From the IMG/VR virus record IMGVR_UViG_3300047471_000692, positions 1-21,073 of that record: a stretch of 21,073 nt of DNA, one strand, 5' to 3'. Every line of letters begins with the position of its first letter. The stretch's first letter is position 1. Below are positions 2,066-16,220 of this stretch, one piece after another. Position numbers and translations under genes: made by a program. Under the pieces are notes generated by a model. That model made no database searches. It was given only the letters and a program-made list of their open reading frames with translations, and was not told where the DNA came from. The stretch comes from a virus.

Positions 2066-2481
2066 GGTGACATCCTTTTGAATTGTTCGACCGGGATGAC
2101 AACGACAGGTTCTTGATCTTCGATGTCGCCGCGATCGACGCGGCCGCGAAATTCGACGCTACGCTCGCGCAGCATACTTGTGTAAGCGTAGCCATCATTG
2201 AACTGGACGACGAACAGGCACGGCAGGCGCGTTACGCCGTACAATCTTTCCGCCGCCATGACTTTTTGCAACGACAAGAACACCGTGGGGTGCTCCGACA
2301 GCGTGCGATAGCGGCGCTTGAGCTCCAGCCAGGCGGTGATTTTATTGTCGCGTGTGACCGCATAATCCAAATTGTAGGCGCGCGGCAATTTGCGCACTTT
2401 GCATTTCCAGATCGGCTCGATCCACGCCGCCATCGATTTTTCGACGGCGATATTTTCCTCGGTTTCGTAGATCGGCCGCAT
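2047..2481 (-). CDS. PD-(D/E)XK nuclease-like phage protein
   Basis: This gene encodes 144 residues from ATG 2481, which overlaps the terminase stop as TGATG. The layout fits the PD-(D/E)XK nuclease fold. An N-terminal helix carries several glutamates (E8, E9, E14), an aspartate sits in a strand (NLDYAV, D39), then ELK (E53, K55) follows in the next strand, and a basic helix comes after (RRYRTLSEH). That is the usual E...D...ExK arrangement. Placed directly downstream of the large terminase, it could trim or resolve packaging DNA or attack host DNA; this role is inferred. The 400-residue frame starting far upstream is an out-of-frame reading of the terminase, so the short form is right. Confidence 0.75.
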   Translation of the reverse strand: MRPIYETEENIAVEKSMAAWIEPIWKCKVRKLPRAYNLDYAVTRDNKITAWLELKRRYRTLSEHPTVFLSLQKVMAAERLYGVTRLPCLFVVQFNDGYAYTSMLRERSVEFRGRVDRGDIEDQEPVVVIPVEQFKRMSPCTTSV

Positions 2482-3986
2482 CACGCAGCCTGCCAGGATC
2501 CGGCCGGCGGCTGACGCATGCGCTTGACTGGTTCGGTTTGCGCGAATCGCAACATCATCAGCGCGTAGCGCGTGGCCGACAAAAGATCGTCGTGCTCCTT
2601 CACCACCTTGCCGTCCTTGCGGTGATAGAGGCGGAATTCTTCGTACCAATCGTTGAGGTGCGAGAACACTTTCAGGCGGCCGGTCTGCATGCGATCGAGC
2701 ATCAGCATCAGTCCGGCTTCGACGCCGGAGGCGCCATCGATGAATGTTGCGCGCTCGGGCAGCATGGCCAAATGTTGGCCGCGGTACTGCGAGGCGAGCT
2801 CGTCGCCACTGCCTTTGTCGGCGGCGAGGCCGTCGTGCGGCCAGGCGATCGGCACCCACTCCGAGCCCCAGGCGCGGATCGCCGCGGCGTGCAGGATCGG
2901 CGTCGACTGTCGCTGGCGGAATGCGCGCGTGACGTAGACGATGTCTTCCTCGCGATCGTGCGTGAGCTCGACGCAAGCGAACGGATGGTCGTAGCCGAAA
3001 TCGAGCCCGCGGATGCGGGCAAATTCGCGCGGGAAGATGCGCGCCGGACAAACGATCTGTTCTTCGGTGATGGGGAAGATGCGGCCGGAGCCGAGGGTGG
3101 GAATTCCTTTGGCGCGCGCTTCGCGCTCGTGCGCGGGATAGCCGGCGATGATTTTTTCGCGGTCTGCGGCCGAGTAGTGCGGCGCGTCGTCGATCGTCAT
3201 GTTGATGTTGATGCGATCGGGCGAGGGTTCGAGCAAAAATCTGCGACACACTTCCGACATGCCGAGCAGCGGCGTGAAGGTCGAATAGACCATGCCGGCG
3301 GTCGACGAAATTCGCGTCAGCGCTTCAGAGTAGATTTCCATCGGCGGCTCTTCGTCGAGCCAGACAAAGTCGACGGTGTCGGCCTGCCACTTGGAGCGGC
3401 CCTGATCGTAGCTCTTGAAGTTTAACGTGCTGCGGCCCTGCTGCACGTCACCGCCACCGCCGTGCAGCACGACGATGCCATCGAGCGCATCCGAAACGCC
3501 GTTGCGGCGCGACCAATCGAGCAGGCATTCCTGCGGCAGCAATCCCGTGCCAAACGCCGACTGATCACGCGGGTTACCGACGATCAGTCGCTGCACCCCG
3601 TCGCGCGTGAGCTCGGCGGATTCTGAGCCGGCGACGGCGCGCAGCGGCCGATCGAAGACGCGGCCTTTCCACCAGGGCGGGTAGCGTCCGGTGAGGTGCA
3701 TGGCCGCCTCGGCGGATCCGGCCAGCGTCTTGCCGATCTGGTTGCCGGCGAGCAAGGCGCGTTCGCGGTAGATGCCGCCGGCATCGTGGAATTCGCGTTG
3801 TTTGGGATAGGGCAGATACTGCGACAGGCGCGAGAGTGAATTGCGCCGCTCGCGTTCACGCCCGAGGCGTTTAGTGAGGAGCTCCTGCGCGGCCAGGCCG
3901 CGGCGCAGCTCGGCGAGTTGTTCGGGCGTGAATCGGTATGTCGGCGTTTTTTTTGCAGCGGATTTTTTCGTCGACTTTTTCGTCAT
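2481..3986 (-). CDS. terL: Terminase large subunit (DNA packaging ATPase/nuclease)
   Basis: This 501-residue packaging motor cuts concatemeric phage DNA and pumps it into the procapsid. The ATPase half has the Walker A-like GNQIGKT (81-87) and the Walker B FVWLDEEP (207-214, catalytic Glu after the Asp). A probable coupling STFTP motif sits near 235-239. The RNase H-like nuclease half has D329 in GLDFGYDHP, a PHDG motif near 385, and a late HDD motif (VKEHDDLLSATRY). This pattern matches P22 gp2-type terminases. The N-terminal 13 residues are very Lys-rich. ATG 3986 is preferred over GTG 3995 because it overlaps the stop of the preceding small gene as TGATG. Length is typical for the family. 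Confidence 0.95.
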   Translation of the reverse strand: MTKKSTKKSAAKKTPTYRFTPEQLAELRRGLAAQELLTKRLGRERERRNSLSRLSQYLPYPKQREFHDAGGIYRERALLAGNQIGKTLAGSAEAAMHLTGRYPPWWKGRVFDRPLRAVAGSESAELTRDGVQRLIVGNPRDQSAFGTGLLPQECLLDWSRRNGVSDALDGIVVLHGGGGDVQQGRSTLNFKSYDQGRSKWQADTVDFVWLDEEPPMEIYSEALTRISSTAGMVYSTFTPLLGMSEVCRRFLLEPSPDRININMTIDDAPHYSAADREKIIAGYPAHEREARAKGIPTLGSGRIFPITEEQIVCPARIFPREFARIRGLDFGYDHPFACVELTHDREEDIVYVTRAFRQRQSTPILHAAAIRAWGSEWVPIAWPHDGLAADKGSGDELASQYRGQHLAMLPERATFIDGASGVEAGLMLMLDRMQTGRLKVFSHLNDWYEEFRLYHRKDGKVVKEHDDLLSATRYALMMLRFAQTEPVKRMRQPPAGSWQAA

Positions 3987-4072
3987 CAGAGCCACCCGAA
4001 AACGATGATGAGCACGACCGCCATCAGGATGATGATGGCGATCGTGAAGGCATTGTTGGCGGTGTAGTTCAC
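3986..4072 (-). CDS. 28-residue single-span membrane peptide
   Basis: A tiny frame starts at GTG 4072, overlapping the upstream stop by four bases (GTGA), and ends in a TGATG overlap with the large terminase. About residues 9-27 (FTIAIIILMAVVLIIVFGW) form a strong transmembrane helix. The two coupled junctions and the hydrophobic pattern argue for a real gene, although it is too short for most gene callers. It is one of three membrane peptides of exactly 28 residues in this window. The function is unknown. Confidence 0.55.
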   Translation of the reverse strand: MNYTANNAFTIAIIILMAVVLIIVFGWL

Positions 4073-6358: not shown

Positions 6359-6778
6359 CTATGGTTTGGTGAAGGCACGCCCGTATTGCTGCACGCCACG
6401 CCCAAACGGTTCGAGAAATGCCGGCAGATCGCCCGCGCCCAGCTGCCGCGCCAAATCGGAATTCTCTGCCGGCCGCGGCTGATTGTAATACTCCTGGAAC
6501 TGCCGATTGCGGATGTCGCGCGGGTCGGTGAACGGATCACGCCAAATGGCCGCCAGGTTTTCCATCGGCGCCCCGCCCATCAGCAGGTTGGTGAGATACT
6601 CGCTGATCGATCGCGGCCGCAGATCCTCCACGTTCTCCGAGCGCCGCATCGGACCAATATCGATGCGCGGCCCAACCGGAAAACGCCCGCTGGTGTCGAA
6701 TTCCTGCAGCCGCTGCGCCATCGCCTGGCCGAGCGTCTGCAGATCGCCACGCTGCGGCCAATAAGGAGATTCCGGCAT
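6359..6778 (-). CDS. Hypothetical phage protein
   Basis: This gene encodes 139 residues from ATG 6778, which overlaps the stop of the upstream gene as TGATG, with AAGGAG-type sequence just inside the coding start rather than before it. The composition is charged and helical with several Pro and Gly turns (SEYLTNLLMGGAPMENLAAIW, DPRDIRNRQFQEYYNQ). No transmembrane segment or catalytic motif is visible. It resembles in style the structural accessory proteins at the left end of the operon, but I cannot assign a family. Confidence 0.75.
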   Translation of the reverse strand: MPESPYWPQRGDLQTLGQAMAQRLQEFDTSGRFPVGPRIDIGPMRRSENVEDLRPRSISEYLTNLLMGGAPMENLAAIWRDPFTDPRDIRNRQFQEYYNQPRPAENSDLARQLGAGDLPAFLEPFGRGVQQYGRAFTKP

Positions 6779-6954
6779 CAGGGTTTCACCAACCCAGTGG
6801 CCAGCGCGATCGCGATCAAAACGATGATGCCCAAGAGTGCGAGTGCCGCGCCGAGCACGTAATCATTCACCGGCCAGCTGTTGCGCTCACGCCGATCGGC
6901 GGCGAGCTCCTCGTCACCTGGCAGCGGGATCTTGTTGGGTCGACGGTGCGCCAT
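6778..6954 (-). CDS. Small C-terminally anchored membrane protein
   Basis: This is a 58-residue protein from ATG 6954. The first 30 residues are charged and hydrophilic (MAHRRPNKIPLPGDEELAAD), followed by one membrane span (about residues 34-54, VLGAALALLGIIVLIAIALATGL). The start lies one base after the stop of the preceding gene (TGAGATG), and the stop overlaps the next start (TGATG). It is not found by length-limited gene callers. The function is unknown. Confidence 0.65.
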   Translation of the reverse strand: MAHRRPNKIPLPGDEELAADRRERNSWPVNDYVLGAALALLGIIVLIAIALATGLVKP

Positions 6955-6955
6955 C

Positions 6956-7147
6956 TCAATAGCTGCGGCTGCGCTTGCCGGTGTGCTCGCGCTTCGGCTT
7001 CGACAGCCCGGCCTCGCTCAGGGCGATAGCCACAGCCTGCGAGCGCTTCTGCACCAGCGGTCCCGTGGGCGAACCACTGTGCAGCTTGCCCTGCTTGAAC
7101 TTGTGTAGCTCCTGCTTCACGCCGGCACGCCCCTTGGCAACAGGCAT
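6956..7147 (-). CDS. DUF6496-like small basic protein
   Basis: This is a 63-residue, very basic protein. The pattern MPVAKG-KxxLHKFKQGKLHSGS, then VQKRSQAVAIALSEAGLSK, matches the DUF6496 family, short proteins common in Proteobacteria and their phages. The function of that family is not established. GGAGG sits about 7 bases before ATG 7147. It is the first gene of the leftward operon, separated by only 67 bases from the divergent rightward operon, and the palindrome at 7161-7175 lies 13-28 bases upstream of its start, where it could affect both directions. Confidence 0.85.
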   Translation of the reverse strand: MPVAKGRAGVKQELHKFKQGKLHSGSPTGPLVQKRSQAVAIALSEAGLSKPKREHTGKRSRSY

Positions 7148-7158
7148 GTTATCCTCCG

Positions 7159-7187
7159 TTGTCAGGTGACCTGACCTCTGCTATGCA
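7159..7187 (+). promoter_or_regulatory. Promoter of the small-gene operon with embedded operator
   Basis: TTGTCA (7159-7164) and TATGCA (7182-7187) are separated by exactly 17 bases. A perfect 15-base palindrome, GTCAGGTGACCTGAC (7161-7175), overlaps the -35 and the spacer. The 13-base core is identical to the one inside the rightward recombination promoter near 14276. Binding there would block polymerase, so the palindrome is best read as a repressor operator. Start ATG 7215 is about 20 bases after the predicted transcription start. Confidence 0.7.
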
Positions 7188-7214
7188 TTGTGCTTCCGCA
7201 ACGAAAGGACAGCC

Positions 7215-7430
7215 ATGCATACCTATTTGCGCACCATGCACAAGGACGGCAAGACCCAGCTCTACACCGTCGGATCCTGGGCGCCGTCGATCGATGACAA
7301 CAAACCCGCCGCACGCTGGATCCCGATCAAAGACTTCAAACGCGAAAAATACGCCGCCTGCTTCGTGTCGTTCCTCAACGGCGGCGAGGCGATCGAGCAA
7401 TTCATGATCACCTGGGACGGTGACCAATGA
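7215..7430 (+). CDS. Hypothetical phage protein, first gene of the small-gene operon
   Basis: This gene encodes 71 residues from ATG 7215, with AAAGGA about 7 bases upstream. An earlier in-frame start would fall at the promoter -10, so the later ATG is chosen. The sequence looks like a small alpha/beta protein (YLRTMHKDGKTQLYTVGSW, then WIPIKDFKREKYAACFVSFL). No known motif is recognised. The stop overlaps the next start by four bases. Confidence 0.7.
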   Translation: MHTYLRTMHKDGKTQLYTVGSWAPSIDDNKPAARWIPIKDFKREKYAACFVSFLNGGEAIEQFMITWDGDQ

Positions 7431-7513
7431 TCGGAGGATATATCGCCGGCTGGCTCAGCATCATCTGCTTCGGCCTCGTCATCGCCTTCCTGCTCGTGGG
7501 GCTCATGCAATGA
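7427..7513 (+). CDS. 28-residue single-span membrane peptide
   Basis: It starts at ATG 7427 and stops at TGA 7511-7513, with ATGA overlaps at both ends. Almost the whole peptide is one hydrophobic helix (YIAGWLSIICFGLVIAFLLV). GGAGG follows the start codon within the gene, and the upstream GGGACGG-type sequence is weak, so translation probably depends on coupling. The function is unknown. Confidence 0.6.
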   Translation: MIGGYIAGWLSIICFGLVIAFLLVGLMQ

Positions 7514-7710
7514 GCACCGCCCTGGAACGCGAACTCGAAGCCATCATCGATAGCCGCGGCATCCACGCCGTGCTCGTCGCCATCGGCCGTGTCTGTGCCA
7601 ATAAATCTGAGCACATCGCCGTCAATTGGCAAGACGCCAGCCTGGCCAAACGCTGGATCAAGCTCACGCACGCGCTCGCACCCATCATCGCCAAGACGGT
7701 CCACCTATGA
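7510..7710 (+). CDS. Small helical hypothetical protein
   Basis: This gene encodes 66 residues from ATG 7510, within the ATGA overlap. The pattern ELEAIIDSRGIHAVLVAIGRVCANKSEHIAVNWQD, followed by a Leu/Ala-rich helix, resembles short uncharacterised proteins I associate with Bradyrhizobium and its phages, in which a KSEHI...NWQD-like motif is common. No catalytic site is evident. It is coupled to the excisionase-like gene downstream. Confidence 0.7.
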   Translation: MSTALERELEAIIDSRGIHAVLVAIGRVCANKSEHIAVNWQDASLAKRWIKLTHALAPIIAKTVHL

Positions 7711-7934
7711 GCAGGAGCTCGCTCAAAGAACGCGCGTATGCCATCCACAGCATGCGCGTGATCTCGCTCAACCAGGCGGCACGCTACTGCGAACTCACCA
7801 GCAAGCAGCTGCGCGCCTTCATCAAGGGCGGCGCCGGCCCGCACGTCACGCGGCTATCAAACAAGCGTATCGGCTTTACGGTGCGTGATCTCAACAAATG
7901 GATGCTTAAACGATACATGGAGGAAAACCCATGA
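7707..7934 (+). CDS. Excisionase/AlpA-like winged-helix DNA-binding protein
   Basis: This gene encodes 75 residues from ATG 7707. The segment MRVISLNQAARYCELTSKQLRAFIK (about 16-40) is a helix-turn-helix of the MerR/excisionase type. It is followed by a wing with a basic stretch (TRLSNKRIGFTVRDL) and a final helix (NKWMLKRYM). Such small proteins regulate excision or act as local transcription factors. No integrase is in this window, so a regulatory role in this operon is as likely as excision. Confidence 0.75.
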   Translation: MSRSSLKERAYAIHSMRVISLNQAARYCELTSKQLRAFIKGGAGPHVTRLSNKRIGFTVRDLNKWMLKRYMEENP

Positions 7935-8089
7935 TGTGGCCGTTCGAACGTCAGGCCGATCGCATCGCTAAACTCGAAGACGAGCTCATCCGCGCCAACG
8001 CAGAAAACACGCGCCTGCATAACAAAATCACCAAGGCCTACGCCGCCATCGGCCAGGCGCTGGCCGCGCTCGATGAGGAGGGACTATGA
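7931..8089 (+). CDS. Small coiled-coil protein
   Basis: This gene encodes 52 residues from ATG 7931, directly followed by a second ATG that could also serve as start. It has a long amphipathic helix (ADRIAKLEDELIRANAENTRL) and an Ala/Leu-rich end. It is linked to both neighbours by ATGA overlaps. The function is unknown; an oligomerising partner for another small protein is plausible. Confidence 0.6.
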   Translation: MMWPFERQADRIAKLEDELIRANAENTRLHNKITKAYAAIGQALAALDEEGL

Positions 8090-8526
8090 CCACACAGATC
8101 GAAGCTTCGCTACGAGAGGCTGTCGAGGAAGTCATTGCTGACGGCGGCCGTGGCCGCATCAGATTAGACAGCGCGTGGCTAGAAAAAGCACAAGCCGCCC
8201 TCATCGCCGCTGCGGAGGTTGGCACTGAAGCGGAGGAAAATCACCGCATGGGATTTGTCAGCGGCACAGCAGCAGATGGTGATAAATGGGATCGTTGGTA
8301 CGGCAGCCTTCCATGCGATCTACGGAGAAAACTATCGCTGCATGACTTTAAACGGCTTGGCGATCTTTTCGACAATGTTGGACAGCCGGAAGATTGGATC
8401 AAGAAGCGAGCTAACATTCGCGCTACTGCCATCGAACGCTGCGCCCAGTGGCTTATAGAGAATTACGGCAACAGCATGCGCTCAGTAGCCCATGACATGC
8501 GCCGTGCGCTGAAGGATAAGCCGTGA
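8086..8526 (+). CDS. Hypothetical phage protein
   Basis: This 146-residue protein is the largest in the small-gene operon. It is mostly helical. The centre has a compact motif (DKWDRWYGSLPCDLRRKLSLHDF), and the end reads like a common phage tail segment (ERCAQWLIENYGN, then RRALKDKP). Its DNA looks richer in A and T than neighbouring genes, suggesting separate acquisition. It shares a 17-base identical segment (GCCGCTGCGGAGGTTGG, 8206-8222) with the next gene in the same reading frame. No function is recognised. Confidence 0.75.
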   Translation: MTTQIEASLREAVEEVIADGGRGRIRLDSAWLEKAQAALIAAAEVGTEAEENHRMGFVSGTAADGDKWDRWYGSLPCDLRRKLSLHDFKRLGDLFDNVGQPEDWIKKRANIRATAIERCAQWLIENYGNSMRSVAHDMRRALKDKP

Positions 8527-8780
8527 AACCAACACCTCCCGACAAAACAGATCGAGGGACCAAGCCAACTCAGGGCGATTACGATAGAGCCGCTGCGGAG
8601 GTTGGGGATAGCAAAGAACGCATTGCGGCAGATCAGGCATGGGTCGATGCTTGTGTCGCCGCCGAACGCGAACGCTGCGTCGAAATCGTCCAGCACTGGC
8701 TCACCGCGATGAACATGCTGCACGACGAAAAGGGCGAGGCTCTGCTGTACAAACTGCGCAAACTGAAGGAGCAACCATGA
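8523..8780 (+). CDS. Hypothetical charged helical protein
   Basis: This gene encodes 85 residues starting with GTG 8523 in a GTGA overlap. A Pro/Thr/Lys-rich N-terminus leads into helices (DQAWVDACVAAERERCVEIVQHW). The pattern AAERERC...I resembles many short phage proteins of unknown role. The segment AAAEVG is encoded by the same 17 bases found in the preceding gene, which hints at local duplication or recombination. Confidence 0.7.
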   Translation: MKPTPPDKTDRGTKPTQGDYDRAAAEVGDSKERIAADQAWVDACVAAERERCVEIVQHWLTAMNMLHDEKGEALLYKLRKLKEQP

Positions 8781-8872
8781 CCACAGACACGCTCGAAGAG
8801 CTGATCGGCTTTGTCCTGTTCCTAGTGCTGATCGCCAGCGTCGCCATGTTCTCAATGCGGGGGATGACATGA
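8777..8872 (+). CDS. 31-residue membrane peptide
   Basis: It starts at ATG 8777 and overlaps by four bases at both ends. After a short acidic N-terminus (TTDTLEEL), one transmembrane helix follows (IGFVLFLVLIASVAMFSM). AAGGAG precedes the start by about 6 bases. The function is unknown. Confidence 0.6.
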   Translation: MTTDTLEELIGFVLFLVLIASVAMFSMRGMT

Positions 8873-9006
8873 CAATCTTGTCGCTGCTGATCGGCTTCGT
8901 CGGCGGGATAGGTTTTATGCTCCTGCTGGCATGGTTCACACGCGACGATTTTCCGACGCTGTTCGTGCCGCGTGATTGGGATTCGCCGCCGTGGGATGGA
9001 AAGTGA
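8869..9006 (+). CDS. 45-residue membrane peptide with aromatic tail
   Basis: It starts at ATG 8869 with an ATGA overlap. An N-terminal hydrophobic helix (LSLLIGFVGGIGFMLLLAWF) is followed by an acidic and aromatic tail (RDDFPTLFVPRDWDSPPWDG). One span with the tail on the other side of the membrane is predicted. The function is unknown. Confidence 0.6.
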   Translation: MTILSLLIGFVGGIGFMLLLAWFTRDDFPTLFVPRDWDSPPWDGK

Positions 9007-9116
9007 TCGACCTCTACATCAAGCTCGTGCAGGCCGCGATCCTCACCACGATTTTGGTCATCCTGTGGGTCGGGCTCTACGTGTTCGTGCGCGGTGTGGA
9101 AATCGTTCTCGACTGA
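9003..9116 (+). CDS. 37-residue membrane peptide, last gene of the operon
   Basis: It starts at GTG 9003 in a GTGA overlap and ends at TGA 9116, five bases before a strong stem-loop. One central membrane helix is predicted (ILTTILVILWVGLYVFV) with a short acidic end. It closes a run of ten genes whose nine junctions are all 4-base overlaps. Confidence 0.6.
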   Translation: MIDLYIKLVQAAILTTILVILWVGLYVFVRGVEIVLD

Positions 9117-9120
9117 GCTC

Positions 9121-9155
9121 GGGCAGCTGCCGTGCCGTGACGCCGGCAGCTGCCC
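9121..9155 (+). terminator. Strong 12-base-pair stem-loop after the small-gene operon
   Basis: GGGCAGCTGCCG and its exact reverse complement are separated by 11 bases. It begins five bases after the last stop. No T-run follows, so it may act as a Rho-assisted terminator or an RNA 3' end protector. Confidence 0.6.
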
Positions 9156-9210
9156 CTCGATCGATCGCGGGCGGGCTGGGAGAGTTGGCCGCGGTCAACC
9201 GGAACGCAAT

Positions 9211-9242
9211 AGCGCCCTGGCGAGGACAGTCACCAGGGCGCT
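9211..9242. terminator. Second stem-loop between convergent operons
   Basis: AGCGCCCTGG and CCAGGGCGCT form a perfect 10-base-pair stem around a 12-base loop. With the preceding stem-loop it fills the 222-base gap between convergent gene ends (9116 and 9339) and could stop transcription from either side. Confidence 0.6.
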
Positions 9243-9309
9243 TACGCTTGTAGCTCCGCAACAGCACCAATACTACAGATATGCATCCGTTCGTCAGTAC
9301 GGTCAAGTT

Positions 9310-9330
9310 GCGAGCCTCAGAGAAGCTCGC
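9310..9330. terminator. Small stem-loop after the leftward unit
   Basis: GCGAGC and GCTCGC form a 6-base-pair stem around nine bases. It lies 9 bases past the stop of the leftward gene ending at 9339. It is weaker than the other two and lacks a clear T-run. Confidence 0.4.
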
Positions 9331-9338
9331 TGGTGCGT

Positions 9339-9617
9339 TTAAACGCTGGCGCCCTCACCATCACGCAGCAAGAGGCCTTCCTGCGCACGAGGCACGCGCC
9401 CCTCGCGAGCCCAACGCCAATCAGCGGCCGACTCCAGCGAGATCCAACGCCGCTTGCCCAGCTGCATCTCGATCGGCCCGAAGCCACTGTTGCGGAGCTC
9501 GTTGTACCAGCTGCGCGACATGCGATGCGCCGCGCAGAATTCGGCGATCGAATAAACCGCCGGAGCAATGGGCAGCGGGCGCTTGCGCGCCCGTGCCTTC
9601 TTTTTGGTTTTTCGCAT
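9339..9617 (-). CDS. AlpA/excisionase-like DNA-binding protein
   Basis: This gene encodes 92 residues from ATG 9617, which overlaps the stop of the preceding gene as TGATG and has GGGGAGA about 8 bases upstream. A basic N-terminus (KTKKKARARKR) precedes a winged helix: YSIAEFCAAHRMSRSWYNELRNS (helix-turn-helix), then LGKRRWISLESAADW (wing and last helix). This is the pattern of AlpA-type regulators and phage excisionases. It is the last gene of a leftward three-gene unit. The target site is unknown. Confidence 0.8.
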   Translation of the reverse strand: MRKTKKKARARKRPLPIAPAVYSIAEFCAAHRMSRSWYNELRNSGFGPIEMQLGKRRWISLESAADWRWAREGRVPRAQEGLLLRDGEGASV

Positions 9618-9784
9618 CAGTGATTCTCCCCTTGCGGATCGATGTACTCGGTTGACCATTGTCGGCACTGCCGACACTGCCATTCGCGCGGATCCTTCCA
9701 GCTGCGCGCCCAGGCATATCGCATGCCCTGGCAGTGCGTGCATTCGTGCAGGTGGTTCATGAAACCATTTATCCCCTGGTTCAT
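9617..9784 (-). CDS. Small zinc-ribbon protein
   Basis: This gene encodes 55 residues from ATG 9784, one base beyond the stop of the preceding gene (TAACATG). Two CxxC knuckles, CTHC (15-18) and CRQC (40-43 approximately), separated by an aromatic basic stretch (MRYAWARSWKDPREW), indicate a zinc ribbon. Such small phage proteins often bind nucleic acid or a host protein. No further family is recognised. GGTGG lies about 6-10 bases before the start. Confidence 0.7.
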   Translation of the reverse strand: MNQGINGFMNHLHECTHCQGMRYAWARSWKDPREWQCRQCRQWSTEYIDPQGENH

Positions 9785-9785
9785 G

Positions 9786-10073
9786 TTACCACCCGCCCAG
9801 CTGCTTGCGCTCGTGCGCGATCTCGGCATCGACCTGGGCCTCGGCGTCCTCTCCGAGGGCGGTCTTGAGTGTGGAGTGCAGTTCGGCGGGGTCGTCGAGC
9901 GAAACGACTGTGATGCCCTTGCGCTCAAGCTCTGACGGCCAGAGCACGCTCGGATGGCAGAGAACCATCATCTTGCCGTTGGCCTTCTGCCTGACCGGAT
10001 AGCCTTGCGCGGCGAATAGGTCGGCGCGGTCGTCTGATACGCAGTACCAGTGTTTGCCTTGACGATGTCTCAT
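9786..10073 (-). CDS. Hypothetical phage protein
   Basis: This gene encodes 95 residues from ATG 10073, chosen because AGGAG is 7-8 bases upstream; the earlier in-frame GTG lies close to the promoter. The N-terminal half looks like a compact beta-rich fold (HWYCVSDDRADLFAAQGYPV, then NGKMMVLCHPS). The C-terminal half is an acidic helix (GEDAEAQVDAEIAHERKQLG). The function is unknown. It is the first gene of the leftward unit from the divergent promoter at 10099-10126. Confidence 0.75.
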   Translation of the reverse strand: MRHRQGKHWYCVSDDRADLFAAQGYPVRQKANGKMMVLCHPSVLWPSELERKGITVVSLDDPAELHSTLKTALGEDAEAQVDAEIAHERKQLGGW

Positions 10074-10098
10074 GTCAATCTCCTGTTGACCAGACACC

Positions 10099-10126
10099 AG
10101 TGTACACAGGTGGACACTCCTGTCAA
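10099..10126 (-). promoter_or_regulatory. Leftward promoter of the zinc-ribbon/AlpA unit
   Basis: On the minus strand TTGACA (10121-10126) is followed after 16 bases by TACACT (10099-10104), giving a consensus -35 and a fair -10. The half-site CAGGTG (10107-10112) lies next to the -10, as in the promoter near 14236, so weak control by the same regulator is possible. Confidence 0.65.
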
Positions 10127-10134
10127 CTTTGCTG

Positions 10135-10163
10135 TTGACACCCCGATGGGCTCGGACTAGGTT
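10135..10163 (+). promoter_or_regulatory. Rightward promoter, back to back with the leftward one
   Basis: TTGACA (10135-10140) and TAGGTT (10158-10163) have a 17-base spacer. The two divergent -35 boxes form the perfect inverted repeat TGTCAAC/GTTGACA (10121-10140), so two polymerases would compete for the same face of DNA. Confidence 0.65.
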
Positions 10164-10188
10164 CCGATCACCGCAACAGGAGACACCA

Positions 10189-10413
10189 ATGCGCGTACAA
10201 ATCCCTGCCTATACCGATCGCTGGATGATGGGCGATCGCTACGGCGAAGTCACACGGACTACTCGCTCACGGATGGCGACTCCCGCCAATGCCGTCCGCG
10301 CAGCCTTATTGACCAAGAACCCCCACGCAGGACAGCGCGAGATCGCCTACGTCAAGCTCGACAAGTCGGGCAAGACCGTCCGCGTCATCCTCGATGACTG
10401 CCAGGAGGTGTGA
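10189..10413 (+). CDS. Small conserved phage protein with IPAYTDRWMMGDRYG motif
   Basis: This gene encodes 74 residues from ATG 10189, with AGGAG 8 bases before it; longer starts would begin inside the promoter. The N-terminal motif IPAYTDRWMMGDRYGEV and the end YVKLDKSGKTVRVILDDC look like a small beta-barrel. Similar short proteins occur, as I recall, in many Bradyrhizobium genomes and phages and are unnamed. It is cotranscribed with the next small gene. Confidence 0.75.
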   Translation: MRVQIPAYTDRWMMGDRYGEVTRTTRSRMATPANAVRAALLTKNPHAGQREIAYVKLDKSGKTVRVILDDCQEV

Positions 10414-10414
10414 G

Positions 10415-10648
10415 ATGGTCGATAAGATCTTAAAAAAGCAGGAAAACCTTCAGCGCATCCGCAACGCGCGTGCGCGATGGTGGAAGAAGCTTTCCAGGGC
10501 GACGCTGGAGATCAACAAATTGAACGATGAGGAGCGCAGGCTCCTCAAGCCGCGCAAGCTTGAGCTCCACGAGATCGCCGAGGTCACCAGCAAGGAATAT
10601 CACAAGATCAGAGAACAGGATTTCGACGACGCGATCCCGCCCTGGTGA
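10415..10648 (+). CDS. Small basic helical protein
   Basis: This gene encodes 77 residues from ATG 10415, one base after the previous stop, with AGGAGG 8-9 bases before it. It is very rich in Lys, Arg and Glu, with long helices (KKQENLQRIRNARARWWKKL, then KLNDEERRLLKPRKLELHEI). This could be nucleic-acid or protein binding. No family is recognised. The stop is followed by a 16-base palindrome (TGTTTCT/AGAAACA, 10652-10667) and then an intrinsic terminator. Confidence 0.7.
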   Translation: MVDKILKKQENLQRIRNARARWWKKLSRATLEINKLNDEERRLLKPRKLELHEIAEVTSKEYHKIREQDFDDAIPPW

Positions 10649-10672
10649 AATTGTTTCTCAAGAAACACTGCG

Positions 10673-10703
10673 CAGCTGCGGCTCACCCCCGCAGCTGTTT
10701 TTT
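10673..10703 (+). terminator. Rho-independent terminator
   Basis: The stem CAGCTGCGG/CCGCAGCTG has a 7-base loop and is followed by TTTTTT (10698-10703). This is a classical intrinsic terminator for the two-gene rightward unit. It also abuts the stop of the leftward operon that ends at 10702. Confidence 0.85.
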
Positions 10704-11124
10704 ATTGCAGGCCGACCCACCGCTGATCGAACTGAGACAGATCCGGCCAGCAGCATTCTTCCTGCACCTCTGGCAGCAGCACGGGCGGTGGCTTGAGCGG
10801 CGCCGCCTCATCGAACGGCCGACGCTGGTACCATGTGACGCCGTCGAGGCCGGTGTCGGCGTGCAGCTGATTGAATAGCGGGTCGCCTTTTATCCGCTTC
10901 GGTTTTTCCTCCGACCAATGCAGCTGTGATTTCGAAACGACACCATGCTCGCCGCGGTACCAGCAGCGCCGGCCGTCGATCTGTCGCCAGGACCAATAGC
11001 TGCCGCCCTCCGGCCGCTCTTTGCATTCGATCGCAGCCGCGAAACCGACGAACACCAAATAGATCGCAAACGCGCACAGCATCACGAGTGCCAGGCGCAG
11101 GCCTTCAAGCGCGACCTCTTTCAT
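10702..11124 (-). CDS. Membrane-anchored or secreted protein of unknown function
   Basis: This is a 140-residue protein. Residues 9-31 (LRLALVMLCAFAIYLVFVGFAAA) are a signal peptide or N-terminal anchor. The exported part begins with a segment rich in Cys and aromatics (CKERPEGGSYWSWRQIDGRRCWYRG), which I recall from many short Rhizobiales proteins of unknown role. The start ATG 11124 overlaps the upstream stop (ATGA). It is the last gene of the leftward replication operon. A superinfection or envelope role is possible but not shown. Confidence 0.75.
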   Translation of the reverse strand: MKEVALEGLRLALVMLCAFAIYLVFVGFAAAIECKERPEGGSYWSWRQIDGRRCWYRGEHGVVSKSQLHWSEEKPKRIKGDPLFNQLHADTGLDGVTWYQRRPFDEAAPLKPPPVLLPEVQEECCWPDLSQFDQRWVGLQ

Positions 11125-11702
11125 TTCAACCCTCTCCCCTTAGCTGACCTGGCGAACGACAGCGTTGCCAGGGCGTCACGGAATCGATCACTGGTGTAGC
11201 GCTGCTTGCGGATGTCGCAGGCGCCGAATAGCGCCAGGGCTGCGATCGAGAACGACGCGCGGTTGCCCAAGATTATCCACAGCAATCGTGTGTCGAGCGG
11301 ACCAACGTGGCGCAGTAGCCAGGTGAGGAAACTGTTGACCTCTCGGGCGCGCTCGAGTCCGACGATGTTCTTGAGCTCGGCCGACGCCTTGCCATCGATG
11401 CGATCGCCCTCGAACCATTGCCCGATGCCGGACACGCGCGACATATTCTCGAACACGAGCTCGACGTCACGGCCCATCTGGAATGACGCTTCGTCGATGC
11501 GGCCGGCGCGCCGCTCGCGATCGAGCAGATCGATGCGCGCCAGAGCTCGCACGCGACGCTGCGGTTCGTAGGCGTCGGTCACCGCGATCGGCACCACATC
11601 GCGTGCGCTGTTGTTCACCGAGCGCGGAGGTGTCGAGTAGCCGCCGGTCGGCTCGGGAACGCGGCGCAGATCGTGCCGGCCTGGACCGCTCGGCCGCGTC
11701 AT
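11121..11702 (-). CDS. DUF6456-like phage protein
   Basis: This gene encodes 193 residues. ATG 11702 is chosen for its TGATG overlap with the upstream gene; GTG 11705 is one codon earlier. After a disordered N-terminus rich in Pro, Arg and Ser, the body has a helical pattern: DLLDRERRAGRIDEASFQMGRDVE, then LERAREVNSFLTWLLRHVGP, then RYTSDRFRDALATL. This resembles DUF6456 proteins, whose role is not established. In the phage context a late-gene activator or other regulator is possible. The domain call rests on remembered patterns. Confidence 0.65.
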   Translation of the reverse strand: MTRPSGPGRHDLRRVPEPTGGYSTPPRSVNNSARDVVPIAVTDAYEPQRRVRALARIDLLDRERRAGRIDEASFQMGRDVELVFENMSRVSGIGQWFEGDRIDGKASAELKNIVGLERAREVNSFLTWLLRHVGPLDTRLLWIILGNRASFSIAALALFGACDIRKQRYTSDRFRDALATLSFARSAKGRGLK

Positions 11703-11926
11703 CACAATCGATCCGCAAATGACAGCTGACCCGGCAGCGGTTTTTTGCCCAGCTCAATCGCGGCCGGGCCTTCGTAATCGGCCGCGATCGCTTGCATCAG
11801 TGCGATCTCGCGCTCGGCCTGGTCTAGCTTCATTTTGCCCATTTCGACCCAGCGCGGGTAGACGCGCTTGCGCATCGCGAGCTCGCGGCGGATGGAAATA
11901 AGCTTCTCTTCTGCTGTGAATGTCAT
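11702..11926 (-). CDS. Small conserved phage protein (MTFTAEEKL-type)
   Basis: This gene encodes 74 residues from ATG 11926 in an ATGA overlap with the methyltransferase gene. The pattern EEKLISIRRELAMRKRVYPRWVEMGKM, then AEREIALMQAIAADYE, is typical of a short helical protein found in many phages of Proteobacteria next to replication or recombination genes. The function is unknown. Confidence 0.8.
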   Translation of the reverse strand: MTFTAEEKLISIRRELAMRKRVYPRWVEMGKMKLDQAEREIALMQAIAADYEGPAAIELGKKPLPGQLSFADRL

Positions 11927-12498
11927 GACCCCTCCCAGGAGATTCTATCGATGGTCGTCGGGCCTTTGTGCGCTCGATCCCACACGTACCAGGCGAAGGC
12001 CATCGCGCTAGTGGCCTTTGGTCCCGTCCAGCCGTCGCGGTGCATCATCGGCAGTCGATTGCGAAATACGTGGATGCGTGCGAGCCCACTATCTTCGAGG
12101 ATGTCGGTGCGCTTGACGCTTTCGTAGAACGGCAAACGCAGCAGCATGATCACGCGCGGGCAGATGTCGATCGCGTGGCGCACGAAGGCCTCGGCCAACT
12201 TAAAGGGCGGGTTCGTGACGATCGCCTCGATTTTGTCTTGCGAACCCTTCGTTAAAAAATCGTGGCCGTAGAAGGTGTTTCTGTGCTTAGAGCCGTAGTC
12301 GATCAAGTCAGTAGCGAGCACCTCATTGCCTCTGGCGCGCAGCACCTTGACGATGTTGCCACGGCCGCAGGCTGGCTCCCATATTCTGAGCCAGGTTGGC
12401 AGTCGCTCGGCGCGCAGCATGGCCTCGACGGCCACGGCCGGTGTCTCGTAAAGATCGTCGCCGCGCTCGGCGTGCTTGTGTCGGAGCTCAAGCATCAT
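11923..12498 (-). CDS. Orphan DNA adenine-type methyltransferase
   Basis: This gene encodes about 191 residues. The start is ATG 12498 or the adjacent ATG 12495, both overlapping the upstream stop. A DLYETP motif (15-20) precedes the SAM-binding motif I EPACGRGNI (41-49), an acidic strand end follows (ATDLID), and the catalytic motif IV is NPPF (96-99), as in N6-adenine DNA methyltransferases. It lacks a large target-recognition domain, and no restriction gene is nearby, so it likely protects or marks phage DNA. A role on RNA or protein cannot be excluded, because NPPF-type motifs are shared. Confidence 0.85.
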   Translation of the reverse strand: MMLELRHKHAERGDDLYETPAVAVEAMLRAERLPTWLRIWEPACGRGNIVKVLRARGNEVLATDLIDYGSKHRNTFYGHDFLTKGSQDKIEAIVTNPPFKLAEAFVRHAIDICPRVIMLLRLPFYESVKRTDILEDSGLARIHVFRNRLPMMHRDGWTGPKATSAMAFAWYVWDRAHKGPTTIDRISWEGS

Positions 12499-13115
12499 TT
12501 GAAATTGTCCGTTAGCTTGTCCCAGGATCCCGGCTGCGCATCGGGCAGCGCGTCCCACTGCTCTTGCGTGATGCCGTGCCTCTCCATCACTGCCTTGGGC
12601 GTGGCCGGCACATGGTCGCCAGCGAAATGAAAGCCGGCGGCGCGGAGCTCGCCCTTGATCCTGGCCACCACCGCTGCGCGCTGCTCGGGCGTTGTCGTCT
12701 TGACCTCGGCCTCGTAGAGCTCGCGCTGGCGCAGCTGCTCGGCCGCGCGCCGATCCCAATCCGCAGCGTAGCTCGATTGCCGCGCGCGCGAGTCGCAGAA
12801 TTCCACGAGCTCGGCGATCGAGGGCGGAAACTTGCATTCGCGCTGGATGCCGGTGATCGGCGATGTCGCCCAGGTGATCGTCGCATCGTCATACTTTTCC
12901 AGCACCGTCAATAGCTGTTCAAGGAAGCCTTCTGGATCCGCGAAGTCATCCTTTCGGTAGGCGCTGAAGATGCGCCTTGCCGCCTTCGTTACCCACGCCG
13001 ACCGGTCGAGGTCCGCTCGTGCCTGGGACGTATTCGCGGACACCGTTTTGGGTGAAGAAGTCGTCAAGCTTGTCGGTGACGTCCAATAGCGATCCAGATC
13101 GTCTTCCATGTCCAT
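12495..13115 (-). CDS. Replication-associated protein (helicase-loader position)
   Basis: This gene encodes about 206 residues from ATG 13115; ATG 13109 has better spacing to the AGGGG site. The first ~50 residues are Ser/Thr-rich and overlap the upstream gene by 170 bases in another frame. The ordered part starts at about AWVTKAARRIFSAYRKDDFADPE and includes FLEQLLTVLEKY and CKFPPSIAELVEFCD, patterns I recall from phage replication-associated proteins. The C-terminus is helical and charged, ending with GITQEQWDALPDAQPG. Position after the replication protein suggests a loader or cofactor, which is inference. A fusion through a frameshift is the alternative. Confidence 0.65.
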   Translation of the reverse strand: MDMEDDLDRYWTSPTSLTTSSPKTVSANTSQARADLDRSAWVTKAARRIFSAYRKDDFADPEGFLEQLLTVLEKYDDATITWATSPITGIQRECKFPPSIAELVEFCDSRARQSSYAADWDRRAAEQLRQRELYEAEVKTTTPEQRAAVVARIKGELRAAGFHFAGDHVPATPKAVMERHGITQEQWDALPDAQPGSWDKLTDNFK

Positions 13116-13506
13116 TGCCCCTGTTGCGGTACGGTGATGAGAGCCAATTGCGCCAGGCAGCGTCCCAGTTGGCGTAGCGCTTGGCATGTGCTGTGCAGTA
13201 GTCGGTGAAGCGAACGAACTCACCCCGGTCCTTCTCTGCGATGATGGGATGCCAATCGGCCGGCATCGTCGTCAGTGCGCGCTTGGTCCGGGCCGGCTTA
13301 GGTGCATCACACAGCTGTAACGTTTCATGTAACGTTACAGGTTTGTTGTTTTTGCTAATCTTTGGGCGCGTAACGTTACGGTAACGTTTCAGTCGCTGAC
13401 GATCGCGCTCACGTCGCGCGGCGAGAGCCTCGAAGGTGTCCACAATTTTTTCGATGATGTCCGCGCGCACGCCCTTCGCCTGGAGCTCGGCAAGCACGTC
13501 GCGCAT
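12946..13506 (-). CDS. Phage replication protein carrying a candidate origin
   Basis: This gene encodes 186 residues from ATG 13506, with GGAGG 9 bases upstream. The N-terminus is helical (VLAELQAKGVRADIIEKIVDTFEAL) and very basic (ARRERDRQRLKRYR). The C-terminal half has MPADWHP...FVRFTDYCTAHAKRYANWDAAWRNWL, a motif found at the C-terminus of many phage replication initiator or DnaT-like proteins. The DNA for the linker (13317-13391) holds four GTAACGTT repeats around an AT-rich stretch, like the lambda ori inside O. The last residues after GTSGPRP are probably not under selection, since the next gene is read there in another frame. Confidence 0.75.
   Translation of the reverse strand: MRDVLAELQAKGVRADIIEKIVDTFEALAARRERDRQRLKRYRNVTRPKISKNNKPVTLHETLQLCDAPKPARTKRALTTMPADWHPIIAEKDRGEFVRFTDYCTAHAKRYANWDAAWRNWLSSPYRNRGNGHGRRSGSLLDVTDKLDDFFTQNGVREYVPGTSGPRPVGVGNEGGKAHLQRLPKG
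13317..13391. other. Candidate replication origin (iteron cluster)
   Basis: Four copies of GTAACGTT start at 13317, 13329, 13370 and 13381. The outer copies extend to GTAACGTTTCA. The inner two are perfect palindromes (TGTAACGTTACA and CGTAACGTTACG). A T-rich, low-GC stretch (about 13340-13364) separates the pairs. Iterons flanking an easily melted stretch inside a replication protein gene is the arrangement of lambdoid origins. This is inferred from the sequence layout. Confidence 0.65.
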
Positions 13507-13635
13507 GAGGTAAGGCCTCCACACAGGCAGGAGAAAGGGCGCCGGTAAGCCTCAGTGTGGCGAGGCAACGGTCATGACTCCGCTGTCCCGGCTAGCGACC
13601 AGCAGACTCGACTGCGGTCGATTCGGTCAAGTCAA

Positions 13636-14046
13636 TTATTGAATCTTTCCCCGCACAACACCCCAGCGCTCCAGATAGCCGAGCGCAGCGTCATAGCCCT
13701 GCGCGAAGGCCCATGTTGCGCCGGCCTCTTCCATCTGCTGCTTAACCTCCAGCTGTTTAGCGCTCGGGTGCTTGCCGAGCATCTTGAGCTCCAGGCCATA
13801 GGCGCGGCCTTTGTACAGGATGATGACGTCAGGCACGCCGGCAACGACGCCGAGGCCCTGCAGGATCGCGCCTTCGTTATTGGTGCGCCAGCCGCCGTTG
13901 GGACAGTGGAATGCAAACACGCCAGGCATGCCGCGCTGGCGGATGTGCGTGAAGATCGCGCGCTGGATCTGCGCCTCGGTCTTCGGCTCAAGTTTCGTCG
14001 GGTTCAATGCCCCAGAGTAGGGGCGAAGCTTCGAAGCCTCGCTCAT
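13636..14046 (-). CDS. VRR-NUC domain nuclease
   Basis: This is a 136-residue PD-(D/E)XK nuclease of the VRR-NUC family. Residue E24 lies in KTEAQIQRAI. Next come FHCPNGG (46-52) and GVPDVIIL (70-77, D73), and ELK at 86-88 provides the metal and catalytic residues. VRR-NUC enzymes in phages often act as structure-specific nucleases or Holliday-junction resolvases. GAGGG lies about 7 bases before ATG 14046. The first 59 bases overlap the end of the regulator gene. About 130 bases without a clear gene separate it from the replication protein. Confidence 0.9.
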   Translation of the reverse strand: MSEASKLRPYSGALNPTKLEPKTEAQIQRAIFTHIRQRGMPGVFAFHCPNGGWRTNNEGAILQGLGVVAGVPDVIILYKGRAYGLELKMLGKHPSAKQLEVKQQMEEAGATWAFAQGYDAALGYLERWGVVRGKIQ

Positions 14047-14188
14047 GCAATGCCCTCGTCATGATCAGGTAGAGTCGCGCCGGAAACTTTTTCTGCGTGT
14101 CGAGCCAGTTGACCAGATTATTGTAGCGTTTGCCGGTGAGCTTGAGCACCGCGGGACGGCCGCCCAGCGCATCGATCACGTCTTCCAT
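13988..14188 (-). CDS. Small HTH (Cro/CI-type) transcriptional regulator
   Basis: This gene encodes 66 residues from ATG 14188; an in-frame ATG 14224 would add 12 residues. The pattern MEDVIDALGGRPAVLKLTGKRYNNLVNWLDTQKKFPARLYLIM is that of short Cro-like phage regulators: helix, turn, recognition helix with N-N-xxNW, then a third helix. The predicted promoter start falls at about 14223, so the 14224 ATG would be leaderless, while 14188 has a 35-base leader. It is the first gene of the leftward replication operon and the obvious candidate to bind the palindromes in 14236-14288 and 7161-7175. Confidence 0.75.
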   Translation of the reverse strand: MEDVIDALGGRPAVLKLTGKRYNNLVNWLDTQKKFPARLYLIMTRALHERGFEASPLLWGIEPDET

Positions 14189-14229
14189 GTCCGCGCACCA
14201 AAGCCGGCGATGCCTTCGAGCCATTAGGC

Positions 14230-14259
14230 CTTATACAGGTGTCCTGCTAAACCTGGCAA
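14230..14259 (-). promoter_or_regulatory. Leftward early promoter with operator
   Basis: On the minus strand TTGCCA (14254-14259), an 18-base spacer and TATAAG (14230-14235) form a promoter for the HTH regulator and replication genes. The imperfect operator CAGGTGTCCTG (14236-14246) abuts the -10. Confidence 0.65.
14236..14246. promoter_or_regulatory. Variant copy of the palindromic operator
   Basis: CAGGTGTCCTG is a symmetric 11-base site that differs from the perfect copies (CAGGTGACCTG) only at one central base. It sits between the -35 and -10 of the leftward promoter, so occupancy would repress that promoter. Confidence 0.6.
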
Positions 14260-14265
14260 GGTCGG

Positions 14266-14294
14266 TTGCCATATGTCAGGTGACCTGATATCTG
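14266..14294 (+). promoter_or_regulatory. Rightward early promoter with perfect operator
   Basis: TTGCCA (14266-14271) and TATCTG (14289-14294) are separated by 17 bases. The spacer contains the perfect palindrome TCAGGTGACCTGA (14276-14288), identical to the core at 7162-7174. The predicted transcription start, about 7 bases after the -10, falls on the ATG at 14301, so the first message may be leaderless. Confidence 0.7.
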
Positions 14295-14300
14295 GAGGGG

Positions 14301-15080
14301 ATGACAAACACCCGCGATCGCTCAAAGAGCATGGGCGGCACTGACATGAAAATCATCATGGACGGCGTCGCCACCAAAATCCATCAGCTGTGGCTGGAGA
14401 AGACCGGCCAGGCCCTCCCCGACGATCTCAGTGGCGTGTGGCCGGTGCGCCGCGGCCAGGCCACTGAGGCCCTCAACATTGAATGGTTCGAGCGCAAACA
14501 ACAGATGTCGGTGTCGCGCCGCGGCGATGTCGTGCGACACCCGCTGCTGCCCTGGGCGACGGTCACGCTCGACGGCTGGGTCGACGCGATCGAATGTCCG
14601 CTTGAGGCCAAAGACGTCGGCGGCCACGAAACGCTAGAGGTCGTCATCATGCGCTACCAACCGCAGATGCAATGGCAGTGCGAGGTGACCGGCGCCGACC
14701 AAGTTGCGATGTCGCTGATCATCGCCGGCCGCGAGCCGGTCGTCGAGTACATCGCGCGCGACGCCGCCTACGCCGACAAAATGATCGAGGTCGGCGAGCT
14801 CTTCTGGAAGCATGTGGTGGATCGCACGCCGCCGGTCGATCTGCCCGTCGTGCCGCCGCCGATCGAGGCGAAGGCCGAATACGATATGACCGGCGACAAT
14901 CGCTGGGCGTCAGAGGCCGCGATTTGGTTGGAGACAAAAGCTTCGGTCGAGAAAAACGAGGCGGCAGCGTTGATGCTCAAAGAGCTCGTGCCGGCCGACG
15001 CAAAAAAATGCACCGGACATGGTGTCTTTATCTCGCGGAATCGCGCTGGCAACCTGTCACTGCGGGAGCTAAAAAAATGA
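14301..15080 (+). CDS. YqaJ-type viral recombinase (exonuclease)
   Basis: This is a 259-residue 5'-3' exonuclease of the YqaJ/lambda-Exo superfamily. The N-terminal SMGGTD (about 10-15) matches the family GGSD motif. LWLEKTGQ follows, then GQATEALNIEWFE (conserved E), TLDGWVD (catalytic D region), LEAKDVG (E-x-K) and RYQPQMQWQCEVTG (Q and Y helix). The C-terminus ends with GHGVFISRNRAGNLSLRE, common in alphaproteobacterial phage versions. GGAGGGG touches the ATG directly, too close for normal use, so either the message is leaderless or ATG 14331 is used; that shorter form would still keep the GGTD motif. Confidence 0.9.
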   Translation: MTNTRDRSKSMGGTDMKIIMDGVATKIHQLWLEKTGQALPDDLSGVWPVRRGQATEALNIEWFERKQQMSVSRRGDVVRHPLLPWATVTLDGWVDAIECPLEAKDVGGHETLEVVIMRYQPQMQWQCEVTGADQVAMSLIIAGREPVVEYIARDAAYADKMIEVGELFWKHVVDRTPPVDLPVVPPPIEAKAEYDMTGDNRWASEAAIWLETKASVEKNEAAALMLKELVPADAKKCTGHGVFISRNRAGNLSLRELKK

Positions 15081-15337
15081 GCTACTACCTGATGCGGATA
15101 CTGAGCCCGCCGGAGCTCGCCGGAAAATTTCTGCGCAGCTTTGATTTTGATGCCGAGGACGGGCGCGGCTACGGCGTGTTCACGATGGACGGCACGCGCG
15201 CCAAAAGGTTTCGCGACGGTCGCGCCGCGATGGAATTCTGGAAAACCATTTCTAAAAAAAGACCGCTGCGCTCGGACGGCAAAGCGAACCGTCCGCTTTC
15301 GGCGAGCACAATCGAAATCGTCAAATTGGGAGACTAA
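15077..15337 (+). CDS. Small hypothetical protein between exonuclease and annealase
   Basis: This gene encodes 86 residues from ATG 15077, an ATGA overlap with the exonuclease stop; longer frames beginning at 14672 are out-of-frame readings of the exonuclease. The sequence looks like a compact alpha/beta protein (FDFDAEDGRGYGVFTMDGT, then MEFWKTISKKRPLRSDG) with a basic end. I recognise no family. Its place between the two recombination genes suggests a partner in that pathway, which is inference. Confidence 0.75.
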   Translation: MSYYLMRILSPPELAGKFLRSFDFDAEDGRGYGVFTMDGTRAKRFRDGRAAMEFWKTISKKRPLRSDGKANRPLSASTIEIVKLGD

Positions 15338-15338
15338 C

Positions 15339-16220
15339 ATGACCACTGAAACCAAGCCGCTCGAAATCATCGAGCCCGCACTCGCAAGTCCGTTGCAGCT
15401 GCCGGCGGTCGCCGACAAGCACGGCGCCGTCGTCGAGAAAAAAGCAGCGCGCAAGCGCGAGGATAAGCCGGCGTCGATCGTCAACATTGCGGCCGCGATC
15501 TCCGGCGTCATCGCCGAGTGCGGTGTCGTCGCCAAGCTCGGCACCAACAAATTTCATAACTACAAGTTCGCGCAGATGCAGGATGTCCTGCAGAAGGTCA
15601 CACCGCTGATCGCCAAGCACGGCCTCATCATCGTGCAAACGGAGGTGGACCGTCAGATGGTCGATGAGGGGAAAGCGGTCGCGGTCGAATACGAGTTCAC
15701 GATCGCACATACGTCTGGGGAGGTTTGGCCGGATCGGCCGAAGCAGACCGGGCTATGCCGGTGCCGCGATAGCAAGGGCGGGTTCGATGACAAGTGCTTC
15801 AACAAAGCACACACCGCCGCCAGGAAATATTTTTTGCTCGCGCTATTCCAGATCGCGACCGGCGAGGAGGATGACGCCGACGAGCATGAAACCGGTCGAG
15901 CACCGCCGCCGCCAAAGCGGCCGGCGCCCAAGCACGATCCTCACACGGGTGAAATTTTTGAATCCGACGCTACTGCGACCCACCAACAATCGACGGCAGC
16001 GAAGGAAGCCGCCCCCGCCGCAAATGGGGGGGCGGAACCTATGAGCCTGGAGAGCATGGCTCGCGAAGCGGCCGCACGTGGCCGTGACGTGTTCCGTACC
16101 TTCTGGCGCAACCGCTCAGCAGCTGAGCAGAAGCAGCTAGAGGCGATCGGAGCGGAACTGAAGACACTGATGGCACAAGCAAAGGACGCGCAGGATGAGG
16201 CAACAGCGACAGGCTACTAA
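15339..16220 (+). CDS. erf: ERF family single-strand annealing protein
   Basis: This gene encodes 293 residues from ATG 15339, one base after the preceding stop (TAACATG), with GGGAGA 8-9 bases before it. The ERF core runs from about residue 40 to 165: ASIVNIAAAISGVIAECGVVAKLGTNKFHNYKFAQMQDVL (read in parts), then PLIAKHGLIIVQTE, VEYEFTIAHTSGEVW, and the signature AARKYFLLALFQIATGEEDDAD. ERF proteins anneal complementary single strands made by an exonuclease; here YqaJ is the partner. The C-terminal 120 residues are a Pro/Ala-rich linker and a final helix, as in other ERF proteins. Confidence 0.92.
   Translation: MTTETKPLEIIEPALASPLQLPAVADKHGAVVEKKAARKREDKPASIVNIAAAISGVIAECGVVAKLGTNKFHNYKFAQMQDVLQKVTPLIAKHGLIIVQTEVDRQMVDEGKAVAVEYEFTIAHTSGEVWPDRPKQTGLCRCRDSKGGFDDKCFNKAHTAARKYFLLALFQIATGEEDDADEHETGRAPPPPKRPAPKHDPHTGEIFESDATATHQQSTAAKEAAPAANGGAEPMSLESMAREAAARGRDVFRTFWRNRSAAEQKQLEAIGAELKTLMAQAKDAQDEATATGY

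Follow-up and report, generated by a model that had tools for sequence, protein, structure and literature searches.

A palindrome with the half-site TCAGGT and an odd centre recurs in gaps before genes of this phage and of its sister phages, in a number and at places that are not random. It is probably an operator to which a transcription repressor of the phage binds, the most likely one being the small Cro-like HTH protein encoded at 13988-14224. The whole stretch of 21,073 nucleotides that was analysed is referred to as the window.

Copies of the palindrome and the promoters around them

An exact 13-base palindrome, TCAGGTGACCTGA, had been reported from inspection of the window at 7162-7174 and 14276-14288, and both copies were found again. 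The variant described at 14236-14246 was also recovered: it differs from CAGGTGACCTG at one of the 11 bases originally quoted and at three positions of the 13-mer, and in its full length, 14235-14247, it reads ACAGGTGTCCTGC. At 7161-7175 the dyad extends to a 15-mer. A scan of the window allowing up to one mismatch, the tolerance that the original prediction had proposed for a scan of the full phage genome, gave no copies beyond these.

Operator 1 (GTCAGGTGACCTGAC, 7161-7175) is located in a 67-bp gap between an operon of small overlapping genes (7215-9116, plus strand, beginning with the ATG at 7215) and the leftward DUF6496 gene (6956-7147, minus strand), whose start codon at 7147 follows the operator by about 14 nt. 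The DUF6496 gene opens the leftward structural block, in which the terminase (2481-3995) is found, and the promoter of the small genes sits opposite this first gene. Operator 2 (TCAGGTGACCTGA, 14276-14288) lies in the spacer between the boxes of the promoter that reads rightward into the exonuclease/ERF operon, and its end meets the proposed -10 element. The first gene after it encodes a YqaJ/RecE-like recombination exonuclease (14301-15080, plus strand), whose start is backed by N-terminal alignment with its relatives; the same operon encodes an ERF-type single-strand annealing protein (15190-16220, plus strand, start approximate). Operator 3, the weak copy ACAGGTGTCCTGC at 14235-14247, is in the spacer of the promoter that reads leftward into the HTH gene and touches that promoter's -10 sequence TATAAG.

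The leftward operon (minus strand) contains, in this order, the HTH gene (13988-14224; 78 amino acids from the ATG at 14224, 66 from that at 14185), a probable endonuclease gene (13636-14046; phrog_93/824), a probable replication gene (12946-13524) weakly matching a family of primosomal proteins, and a DNA methyltransferase-like gene (11923-12501; phrog_799). The HTH-nuclease gene order was also seen in L042/L043, where the nuclease was identified by eye. Within the probable replication gene, positions 13316-13391 carry iteron-like GTAACG/CGTTAC repeats, including two perfect GTAACGTTAC palindromes and partial copies, and these likely mark the origin. The sister phage L003 has repeats of the GTCACGTGAC type at the matching place (about L003:8981-9080), and the relative L020 has ten GTAACG/CGTTAC units at 6711-6828, sequence differences that may reflect switches of origin specificity.

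The divergent promoters in the HTH/exonuclease gap are mirror-symmetric. The segment TGGCAAGGTCGGTTGCCA (14254-14271) contains back-to-back -35 elements, TTGCCA in either direction, from which one promoter extends leftward (TTGCCA-18-TATAAG) and the other rightward (TTGCCA-17-TATCTG), each carrying one dyad immediately ahead of its -10. Palindromic operators in its own and in the divergent early promoter, as at 14235 and 14276, are the arrangement of a Cro repressor, here at promoters that are predicted. The description of these boxes as good -35 and -10 elements was too strong, because at both perfect sites (7162 and 14276) they match the consensus in 8 of 12 positions, a score attained by about one quarter of random 130-bp segments, and a strict consensus scan detected no promoter in either region. 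The leftward promoter with the 18-nt spacer scored 10/12.

Operator 1 was unchanged in L063, G003, G004, G005, G006 and L081, and operators 2 and 3 were kept in G003. This conservation is not specific to the operators, since the intergenic regions of the sister phages are identical throughout. The core of the dyad, GGTNACC, is also the recognition site of BstEII; the window contains eight such sites for 7.0 expected, so there was no sign of selection on the core, and the idea of a restriction site was dropped.

Sites beyond the window and in other phages

When viral contigs were scanned with GTCAGGTNACCTGAC, near-identical or sister contigs were recovered. In G005 and G004 a fourth site, TCAGGTGACCTGT, was found at window coordinate -1464, that is 1.46 kb past the left end; it precedes an 84-aa gene and the portal gene, and its core is also present in L119 and L120. 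Being outside the window, this site in the structural region was beyond the view of the original prediction. Both exact sites are retained in L003, a sister phage of about 90-95% identity, and a fifth site, TCAGGCGACCTGA, is present there within DNA that is missing from the window. This site directly follows a TTGACA-16-TATGGT promoter, and about 25 nt after it comes the start codon of an inserted gene resembling queuine tRNA-ribosyltransferase/DpdA (phrog_887, E 1.2e-30). By our calculation, about 0.03 sites with at most one mismatch would be expected by chance in the 14.7 kb concerned. The insert itself (L003:5012-5869) is a possible DNA 7-deazaguanine modification gene.

Paired operators were found in the contig of L003 alone among the viral contigs, and the motif was not found upstream of the exonuclease in relatives at 40-60% identity. 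A search for tandem operators yielded only repeats in coding or unrelated DNA, and a scan for tRNAs was empty. The sequence CAAGGTGACCTGA in L004/L005 was considered as an operator and rejected: it overlaps the start codon and is probably a chance occurrence.

Could the repetition as a whole be accidental, the dyads having no function? Identical 13-bp odd palindromes (spacer 1) occurred at 0.1 pairs per shuffled window, and some identical pair was present in 16% of 27.5-kb shuffles, so that the pair by itself is weak evidence. The case rests on the location of the sites and on the additional sites. In the 27.5 kb formed by the window and its left extension CAGGNNNCCTG was counted five times, against 0.43 in shuffles, and none of 300 shuffles reached five. 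Four of the five sites fall in the non-coding 7.1% of this DNA as defined by our gene map (binomial P ~1e-4). Together with the extra, independent site in L003, these counts make a chance origin hardly conceivable.

The single regulon of the original prediction was in part supported. An operator-like dyad is present in several gaps before genes, two of its copies flank the divergent HTH/exonuclease promoters, and it recurs in sister phages and at further promoters.

The 15-mer or its core was also detected in two podophage records, nine copies in G001 and three in G002. Copies of TCAGGNNNCCTGA are located in L065/G001 at 41968-49607 and 5166 and in G002 at 6995, 8022 and 8290, several of them shortly before start codons, and in the zone of its dyads G001 encodes a protein (43562-44380) judged by eye to be XRE-like. 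Since no protein is common to G001/G002 and the present phage, the dyad might be the site of a host transcription factor used by several phages. However, the motif was not enriched in the genomes of two orders, 249 from that of Methylobacterium and 200 from that of Variovorax (three sites in the 449 genomes against six for the reversed control), a result that holds for these two orders, while the host may belong to another. Moreover, we estimate about 16,000 possible 15-bp odd palindromes of this type against 2.9 million contigs, and independent reuse of one dyad by unrelated phages is to be expected. The copies in G001/G002 were taken as independent use of one from a limited number of dyads, and a host factor was judged improbable.

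An action at the RNA level was also considered, in which a 5'-UTR hairpin (GUCAGG-UNA-CCUGAC) before the ribosome-binding site would control translation or stability. Several copies (14276; 7162 leftward; -1464 leftward; L003 4974) lie 12-25 nt ahead of a start codon and are separated from it by a Shine-Dalgarno-like sequence, several G001/G002 copies are similarly close to start codons, and the CAGG/CCTG stem is intact in every variant. However, at 14235 and 14276 the dyad lies directly upstream of the proposed -10, so that transcripts from those promoters would not include it. In addition, all nine G001 copies keep the T and the A beside the free central base, which a DNA dyad needs and a three-base loop would not, and a scan with Rfam gave no match. 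The hairpin is thus a very improbable explanation, and the repressor operator is the reading followed below.

The proposed repressor and its targets

The small HTH regulator was named in the original prediction as a possible controller. The window protein alone stayed below every curated family threshold and had no carph-isopro match. It has relatives in L041 and L042 with 38% identity; these two phage proteins match carph-isopro (NF046037; best 2.4e-8), phrog_35, a family of phage transcriptional repressors, and, weakly, P22_Cro. All three HTH proteins match Pfam YdaS_toxin weakly (E = 0.12 for the window protein), and a profile search for further relatives gave nothing new. The AlphaFold model (pLDDT 85) has a helical HTH core, and the closest solved structure in Foldseek was Xfaso 1 Cro (PDB 3bd1), with a probability of 0.96 but E = 0.28. 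The weak profile matches and the predicted fold suggest that the protein belongs to the Cro/carph-isopro HTH group and is a plausible binder of the dyad. Against its proposed role stand the weak sigma-70 boxes at both perfect sites. The probable recognition helix, KRYNNLVNW, differs from those of the relatives (LPTAVYNW and SRTAVCNW), and the contigs L041 and L042 are without the dyad; this agrees with a private operator specificity and is no proof of it.

Two other DNA-binding candidates are encoded in the window: an excisionase/HTH_17-like protein (7707-7934) within the small-gene operon and an excisionase/AlpA-like protein (9339-9743), the latter recognized by eye and without family match. 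Either of these might bind the dyad in place of the Cro-like protein, as might a repressor whose gene lies in the unseen part of the genome. The first candidate matches phrog_66 ('excisionase and transcriptional regulator') and HTH_17 and is encoded in the operon behind operator 1, and only part of the genome was seen. On the other side, the Cro-like gene directly adjoins the paired operators, the usual position of an autoregulator, and the usual targets of excisionase-type proteins are direct repeats at attachment sites rather than dyads scattered over a genome. Another phage binder was therefore regarded as unlikely.

If the Cro-like protein is the repressor, a dimer would bind the dyad and occupy the -35/-10 spacer or the start site, and RNA polymerase would be blocked. 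At the weak site the HTH protein would restrain its own leftward replication operon, and at the strong site the rightward exonuclease/ERF operon would be held down. The same protein would act at the small-gene promoter (7162) and at the promoter before the 84-aa and portal genes (-1464), and in the sister phages ahead of the DpdA-like gene. As it accumulates it would turn off early transcription.

A further regulatory region may exist. Positions 10071-10144 form an island of 65-74 bp that is 96-100% identical across the sister phages while both flanks diverge. It contains divergent TTGACA promoters, of which the leftward one, TTGACA-16-TACACT, scores 10/12. At 10095-10112 it also has a near-palindrome, CACCAGTGTACACAGGTG, to which a second regulator may bind.

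The original prediction had also described the small-gene operon as an early or lysogeny-linked module. The link to lysogeny is unsupported, because no integrase or CI repressor was recognized in the sequence seen of this phage type, about 35 kb (the window, its left extension and L123, the last by eye only), in which genes for terminase, portal, coat-like and further structural proteins and for endolysin are present together with early genes. The phage may lack integrase and CI genes or have them in the unseen part of its genome. Its terminase resembles that of P22-like phages, and among the closest annotated terminases, with about 60% identity, is that of Rhizobium phage RHph_Y25 (MN988538). 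The related phages include temperate ones, since RHph_Y25 has integrase, repressor C and cro-like genes; it does not have the motif of the present phage.

Comparison with known systems

A literature search for the motif gave no relevant paper, and no description of the regulation of this phage group was found. For a P22-like phage group the analysis provides predictions of an operator and of its regulator, with a list of target promoters, and the phage is a natural example of control of the Cro type in which no lysogeny partner is visible. A more far-reaching interpretation, which we put forward tentatively and think rather doubtful, is that an orphan Cro, in a phage without CI or integrase, acts as a genome-wide timing switch: one symmetric operator would shut the early operons and also govern when the structural operon is entered, while genes such as the DpdA-like one would be added in sister phages by acquisition of the site.

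Apart from the lysogeny repressor, for which no candidate partner was found, the arrangement is ordinary for phages, and it is best read as a system of a known kind whose new part is the operator specificity. As with the Cro repressors of lambdoid and P22-like phages, there is a small HTH protein of Cro-like predicted fold at a divergent pair of early promoters, with operators in the spacers. In contrast to those phages, the divergent partner of the HTH gene is the YqaJ exonuclease and not a cI-type repressor gene, the operators are single dyads and not triple, they are also present at distant promoters, and the recognition sequence is new. The likeness to carph-isopro, YdaS_toxin and P22_Cro proteins comes through the two 38%-identical relatives, the window protein itself being without a carph-isopro match. 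Dispersed operators in which one site is repeated are also a feature of RK2 KorB. In Cluster A mycobacteriophages, stoperators are described as a repressor-type site repeated over the genome, asymmetric and numerous (PMC6550527, PMC9283540). The present phages share with them one repressor-type site repeated beyond the early promoters, and differ from them in that, instead of many oriented copies, there are four or five sites, which are symmetric and all lie ahead of genes in the gaps.
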